NCBI RefSeq assembly: GCF_023256435.1
Contig: NZ_JAGDXM010000022.1
Location: 1-44,294, forward strand
Direction of reading: 5' to 3'
Origin: Thermoplasma sp.
GTDB lineage: Archaea > Thermoplasmatota > Thermoplasmata > Thermoplasmatales > Thermoplasmataceae
DNA: 44,294 nucleotides
Shown: in pieces, positions 7,670 through 7,809 of the stretch
Layout of the letters: each line of letters begins with the position of its first letter
Numbering within the stretch: the first letter of the stretch is position 1
Translations under genes and position numbers: made by a program
Notes under the pieces: model-generated
Database searches by the model: none
The model's input: only the letters and a program-made list of their open reading frames with translations
Told to the model about the DNA's origin: nothing

Positions 7670-7809
7670 GGGGACATGGGGTAATGGCATCCTGACGGGC
7701 TCCAGTCAGGAGATGATTAGAAACAGGGTCATCTGATTTGATGATGAGTGACTGGAACTATGATCCAGGAAGAGACCCGTAGATCTGGGTTCAACTCCCA
7801 GTGTCCCCA
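7670..7809 (+). tRNA. tRNA-Trp (CCA anticodon) with intron
   Basis: The mature parts fold perfectly. The acceptor stem is 7670-7676 with 7802-7808 (seven Watson-Crick pairs), and the T arm is 7785-7789/7797-7801 with loop TTCAACT. The anticodon stem is ACGGG 7695-7699 with CCCGT 7776-7780, and the discriminator is A7809. The loop reads C32 T33 CCA G37 then A38 after the intron, so the anticodon at 7702-7704 decodes UGG. An intron of about 69 nt (7706-7774) sits at the canonical 37/38 position. The bulge-helix-bulge is imperfect: two 3-nt bulges fit, but one C-A mismatch lies in the central helix, so the splice sites could shift by a base. CCA is not encoded. Confidence 0.93.
7706..7774 (+). 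ncRNA. tRNA-Trp intron: box C/D 2'-O-methylation guide RNA
   Basis: The intron has the order of a box C/D guide: C-like ATGATTA 7713-7719, D' CTGA 7733-7736, C' ATGATGA 7741-7747 and D-like ATGA 7760-7763. The second guide (7749-7756) pairs over 8 bp with 7701-7708. The nucleotide five before box D (G7755) then faces C7702, which is C34 of the anticodon. The first guide pairs over 5 bp (7726-7730 with 7774-7778) and its fifth nucleotide G7728 faces C7776, position 39. Positions 34 and 39 are the known targets of the Haloferax tRNA-Trp intron guide. Box D is degenerate and the second duplex short. Confidence 0.8.

Follow-up and report, generated by a model that had tools for sequence, protein, structure and literature searches.

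The intron of the tRNA-Trp gene in the 44,294-nucleotide stretch of Thermoplasma sp. DNA that we analyzed (the window) is very probably a dual-guide box C/D RNA, predicted to direct ribose methylation of C34 and C39 in the tRNA that carries it. A preliminary description of the stretch had proposed an intron-borne guide for these two positions. We find support for this reading in conservation across the phylum, in covariation at both splice junctions, and in the published mechanism for tRNA-Trp introns of other archaea (PMC2584109, PMC4090602, PMC5372725, PMC6313347). The D guide and the D' guide each pair across one of the two splice sites, and the boxes that depart from the consensus form a pair that covaries among relatives.

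The tRNA-Trp intron and its two guides

The tRNA-Trp(CCA) gene occupies positions 7670-7809 of the forward strand, on which all features described here lie. It matches the Rfam tRNA family (RF00005) at 48.8 bits, above the gathering threshold of 29, and its anticodon loop holds a long insertion. The tRNA-Trp gene was not reported by ARAGORN run in default bacterial mode. The cloverleaf assignment places a 69-nt intron (7706-7774) directly after G37, with A38 at 7775 and C39 at 7776 as read from the sequence. This location, between positions 37 and 38, is the same throughout an alignment of 34 sequences. The intron also matches box C/D families in Rfam independently of the tRNA assignment. The best match is to sR3 (RF01133), at 7709-7765 with 28.1 bits and an E value of 2e-4; this score is below the gathering threshold of 41 for that family, and the intron does not qualify as a member. 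The tRNA-Trp gene is identical in one relative (genome G001) and 98% identical in another (G004), and BLAST finds the same gene in 44 of 61 genomes.

The D guide, UGACUGGA (7749-7756), forms an uninterrupted 8-bp duplex with 7701-7708, a target that spans the 5' splice site. G7755, the fifth base before box D, is opposite C7702, which is C34. Every base of the D' guide, GGGUC (7726-7730), pairs with 7774-7778, which spans the 3' splice site. G7728, the fifth base before box D', is opposite C7776, which is C39. By the N+5 rule, C34 and C39 are thus the predicted sites of 2'-O-methylation, and position 39 is a C in 134 of 134 introns of Thermoplasmatota. All of the coordinates in the preliminary description hold, including the boxes, the 8-bp and 5-bp duplexes and the intron bases that take part in them, and reading the sequence confirmed the N+5 register at both positions. 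We shuffled the intron 200,000 times with its dinucleotides preserved and the exons held fixed. A D guide with 8 or more bp arose in register 183 times, and a D' guide with 5 or more bp arose in register 169 times. Both guides in order arose once. The comparative evidence is far stronger than this test.

The genome encodes fibrillarin (PF01269, 207 bits), Nop5 (PF01798, 119 bits) and L7Ae (PF01248, 88 bits), and a splicing-endonuclease domain is found in a 289-residue reading frame (73 bits). We postulate that L7Ae would bind the C/D k-turn and the C'/D' loop of the intron, and that Nop5 and fibrillarin would then join. Pairing of the D guide across the 5' splice site would direct 2'-O-methylation of C34, and pairing of the D' guide across the 3' splice site would direct methylation of C39.

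Boxes and the k-turn

The intron contains, in order, box C (AUGAUUA, 7713-7719), box D' (CUGA, 7733-7736), box C' (AUGAUGA, 7741-7747) and box D (AUGA, 7760-7763). The internal boxes are well kept: box D' is CUGA in 127 of the 133 introns scored, and the UGAUGA columns of box C' are invariant in the 34-sequence alignment. Boxes C and D do not fit the literal archaeal consensus (RUGAUGA and CUGA), with U instead of G at position 6 of box C and A instead of C at position 1 of box D. The same AUGA is found as box D in 97 of 132 introns.

Boxes C and D nonetheless form a k-turn of the L7Ae type, in which the G.A/A.G core and the 3-nt bulge are kept. The terminal stem, GGA (7709-7711) paired with UCC (7764-7766), begins directly after box D and is separated from the G.A pairs by the expected three-base bulge; its 5' strand also takes part in the helix beyond the splice-site bulge. 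This stem is paired in 90% of cells, and three of its three pairs have changes on both sides. In the terminal stem and stem II together, 23 cells are changed on both sides, compared to 10.6 in shuffles.

The preliminary description called box D degenerate. AUGA is indeed off consensus, but its first base pairs with position 6 of box C (U7718-A7760), and this pair covaries. A Watson-Crick pair between C6 and D1 in the C/D k-turn has been used as a search criterion (PMC7994747), and the pair in the window is of this kind. Across 132 introns the pair is U-A in 100, G-C in 14, C-G in 9 and A-U in 3, with a mismatch in 6. It is Watson-Crick in 126 of 132, compared to a permuted mean of 82.5 and a maximum of 96, in a permutation test that, like the others used here, ignores kinship among the sequences, so that independent changes are far fewer than sequences. 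The pairs other than U-A are spread over several distinct families: G-C in f5, C-G in f11, f27, f28 and one member of f21, and A-U in f26 and one member of f29. Judged from these sequences, box D is compensated, not broken, by its U-A pair with box C. Boxes C and D can thus drift together by way of a compensating pair, and sRNA searches based on the consensus may penalize such boxes. At the neighboring position, single lineages have U-A, C-G or G-C in place of the usual U.U between C5 and D2 (loci L080, L103, L111 and L019).

Conservation and covariation across the Thermoplasmatota

Of 250 genomes of the class, 237 had a match to a covariance model of the arrangement at E<=1e-6. A large number of the matches are full-length (about 137-215 nt) and clearly tRNA-Trp genes with an intron, although the weakest matches may be other tRNAs. 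In a DNA pattern scan of named genomes, the titles of the matches listed were nearly all Thermoplasmata, Thermoplasmatota, Methanomassiliicoccales, Poseidoniales or Aciduliprofundum. Two loci, one titled Chloroflexi (L165) and one Bacillota (L183), could not be parsed as tRNA-Trp and were left out. In all, 161 loci, including covariance-search loci and the pattern-scan matches listed, were parsed and yielded 134 distinct tRNA-Trp introns.

The intron and guides were aligned across relatives, as the preliminary description had proposed. Across the 134 introns the D duplex is retained throughout, and the D' duplex in most. The 132 introns tallied have D duplexes of 8-12 bp without exception; this set is partly selected, in that the parser required at least 7 bp of D duplex and the presence of CUCCAGU and ACUGGA was the basis for choosing the pattern-scan loci. 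The D guide is also present in 40 of 40 diverse covariance-search loci, which were chosen without the pattern-scan filter. Over the 34 distinct aligned sequences, 99.3% of cells are paired in the D duplex and 94.7% in the D' duplex, and sliding the partner columns by one to three positions reduces total pairing from 97.5% to 18-48%.

Both duplexes covary where they cross into the intron, at bases that neither of the two filters fixes. Intron base 2 and its partner in the D guide are U-A in 89, C-G in 39 and U-G in 6 of the 134 introns; the Watson-Crick count is 128, compared to a permuted mean of 76 and a maximum of 94. Similarly, the last intron base and its partner in the D' guide are A-U in 55, G-C in 54 and U-A in 3 introns. 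The Watson-Crick count is 112 among 128, where permutation gave a mean of 55 and a maximum of 75. In comparative terms, 134 distinct introns from some 25 families of Thermoplasmatota confirm that a tRNA intron has been retained as a guide to the tRNA in which it lies.

The two guides are not equally constant. Position 39, position 38 and the last intron base are contiguously paired with the D' guide in 111 of 134 introns, and this pairing is lost in some lineages. In 29 of the 134 introns the D' duplex is shorter than 5 bp while the D duplex is kept. Among these are introns of Poseidoniales, several Methanomassiliicoccales and Ferroplasma-like members; in the Ferroplasma-like members the D' duplex is 4 bp. 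In five loci of Poseidoniales and relatives (L121, L161, L167, L180 and L192), the D guide to C34 is retained and the D' guide is lost or broken. From the sequences, D' looks like the more dispensable half of the guide.

It is possible, though unlikely, that the D guide alone works, making only Cm34, and that the D' half is a structural remnant that aids RNP assembly. The short D' duplexes (5 bp in the window) fit such a division, as does the finding that the predicted C39 methylation of tRNA-Trp was not detected in the set of Pyrococcus furiosus tRNAs analyzed (PMC7668247). However, the match between the D' guide and the last intron base, and its covariation, speak against this reading, as does the near-invariance of GGGUC within the order. 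In addition, the same arrangement is responsible for methylation of position 39 in Haloferax (PMC2584109). We favor a guide with two working halves.

Some genomes gave no strong match to the covariance model. Among these, a pattern for intronless tRNA-Trp gave 0/40 matches. A looser intron pattern gave mostly chance matches in coding sequence, but it found the intron in one genome (G068) and a fragment of it in another (G054), indicating that some of the apparent absences are missed or fragmented genes. In one genus (g25, family f4), three of three genomes (G043, G046 and G049) had no strong model match, no intronless match and no convincing guide-type match with the looser pattern. The tRNA-Trp of this genus may be unusual.

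Several tRNA-Trp loci have other features. At one locus (L271, G015:C1:586200-594800), the last ~20 bases of the tRNA-Trp gene recur about 8.2 kb downstream. Next to this repeat is a 442-aa reading frame that is tyrosine recombinase-like by eye, with no Pfam match, and a Prim-Pol protein (PF09250) is encoded inside. This locus is probably an element integrated at the tRNA-Trp gene. In four other genomes (G018, G045, G048 and G054; loci L061, L066, L067, L075, L076 and L077), contigs end at or inside the tRNA-Trp gene, and some of these relatives have two copies, each at the end of a different contig, a pattern like that of a recurrent point of integration or of assembly breaks. At another locus (L270, G147:C10:116200-118500), two tRNA-Trp genes 1.8 kb apart flank one ATPase reading frame (PF01637/PF03008); the D' guide is weakened in the second copy (L117).

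Order of methylation and splicing, and known systems

Pairing of the guide with its target is incompatible with the fold needed by the splicing endonuclease, and C34 would thus be methylated before splicing. Methylation could occur in cis, or it could be carried out by the RNP of another precursor or of an excised intron. Folding of the free precursor at 37 C gives a minimum that is neither the cloverleaf nor the guide fold and is not informative alone; at 59 C, the predicted minimum includes the helix between the D guide and its target.

The preliminary description had held that both duplexes need the unspliced RNA. For the D guide this agrees with our results: on the spliced tRNA its duplex is reduced from 8 to 5 bp, and from -11.5 to -6.4 kcal/mol (37 C). 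For the D' guide it does not. The spliced tRNA reads GACCC at G37-A38-C39-C40-C41, the same five letters that the D' guide pairs with in the precursor, because G37 and the last intron base are both G. Therefore, methylation of C39 before splicing is not forced by the letters in this species.

These properties of the spliced tRNA would suit a split order of events in Thermoplasma, in which C34 is methylated on the precursor and the RNP of the excised, possibly circular, intron makes Cm39 on the spliced tRNA. A circular tRNA-Trp intron is known in Haloferax, where removal of the intron is tolerated (PMC7714728). We consider this order improbable. Across the class, the guide base tracks the last intron base, whether A, G or U, and not position 37, which is G in every intron printed. 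We infer from this pattern in the sequences that the unspliced precursor is likely the selected substrate across the class. The Haloferax precursor, moreover, is methylated sequentially, according to the accounts of Singh 2004 given in PMC5372725 and PMC7994747.

Lastly, it is very doubtful that the boxes and complementarity are due to chance or are a by-product of the bulge-helix-bulge splicing structure without guide function: the intron must pair with the anticodon loop for splicing, and stem I of the k-turn is also the outer helix of the splice-site motif, but the D guide is not part of the splice-site strand, holds its N+5 distance to C34 and covaries with intron base 2, the covariation of C6 and D1 is a feature of k-turns and not of splicing, and we reject both a chance origin and a purely splicing structure on the basis of the shuffles and the covariation.

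A dual guide acting at C34 and C39 has close precedents. The intron of Haloferax volcanii tRNA-Trp contains a C/D guide that forms Cm34 and Um39, with part of the intron in the pairing (PMC2584109), and the preliminary description was correct that the two sites are the same. The general statement made for this system is that both methylations must precede splicing (PMC2584109), and the same situation is described there for the pre-tRNA-Trp of at least 29 archaea. Such a guide is found in most euryarchaeal tRNA-Trp genes (PMC5372725), and archaeal tRNA-Trp introns, with a median length of 65 nt, nest a C/D RNA (PMC4090602). In Pyrococcus, the sRNA in the pre-tRNA-Trp intron is called sR50 (PMC7994747). 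Cm34 and Um39 (or Cm39) are listed for tRNA-Trp in PMC6313347; T. acidophilum tRNA-Trp is absent from the sequenced tRNAs listed there.

As summarized in PMC2584109, PMC5372725 and PMC7994747 from Clouet d'Orval 2001, Bortolin 2003 and Singh 2004, the H. volcanii intron resembles the one described here in its location at 37/38, in its C, D', C' and D boxes and in the targeting of riboses 34 and 39. In the same summaries, guide pairing includes intron bases, so that methylation precedes splicing. The two differ in that position 39 is a C here and a U in H. volcanii, and the intron is 69 nt here and 103 nt there. The C6:D1 pair is U-A here; the comparison to H. volcanii is by published description only. 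In the Rfam sR3 consensus, GGGUC precedes box D' and UGGAGC precedes box D, with 39 and 34 in the same N+5 register, but the sR3 boxes are canonical (AUGAUGA and CUGA), whereas Thermoplasma has AUGAUUA as box C and AUGA as box D.

Thermoplasmatota introns from outside the order (families f8-f32) have the same boxes, two guides and junctions as Thermoplasma. They are 75-136 nt long, and most have, between box D and the 3' splice site, an additional hairpin (GGGGUAGCUCCCC-like) that Thermoplasma lacks. This hairpin is strongly paired in the introns of loci L081-L113, and four examples of it have energies of about -13 to -20 kcal/mol.

For most euryarchaeal tRNA-Trp introns, earlier work already describes the mechanism, both target sites and the pairing across the splice junctions. 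To these our analysis adds the covariation at the splice junctions across the phylum and the compensated k-turn. The Thermoplasma intron is a well-preserved example of an arrangement that has been recognized in many archaea since 2001, and does not constitute a new type of system.
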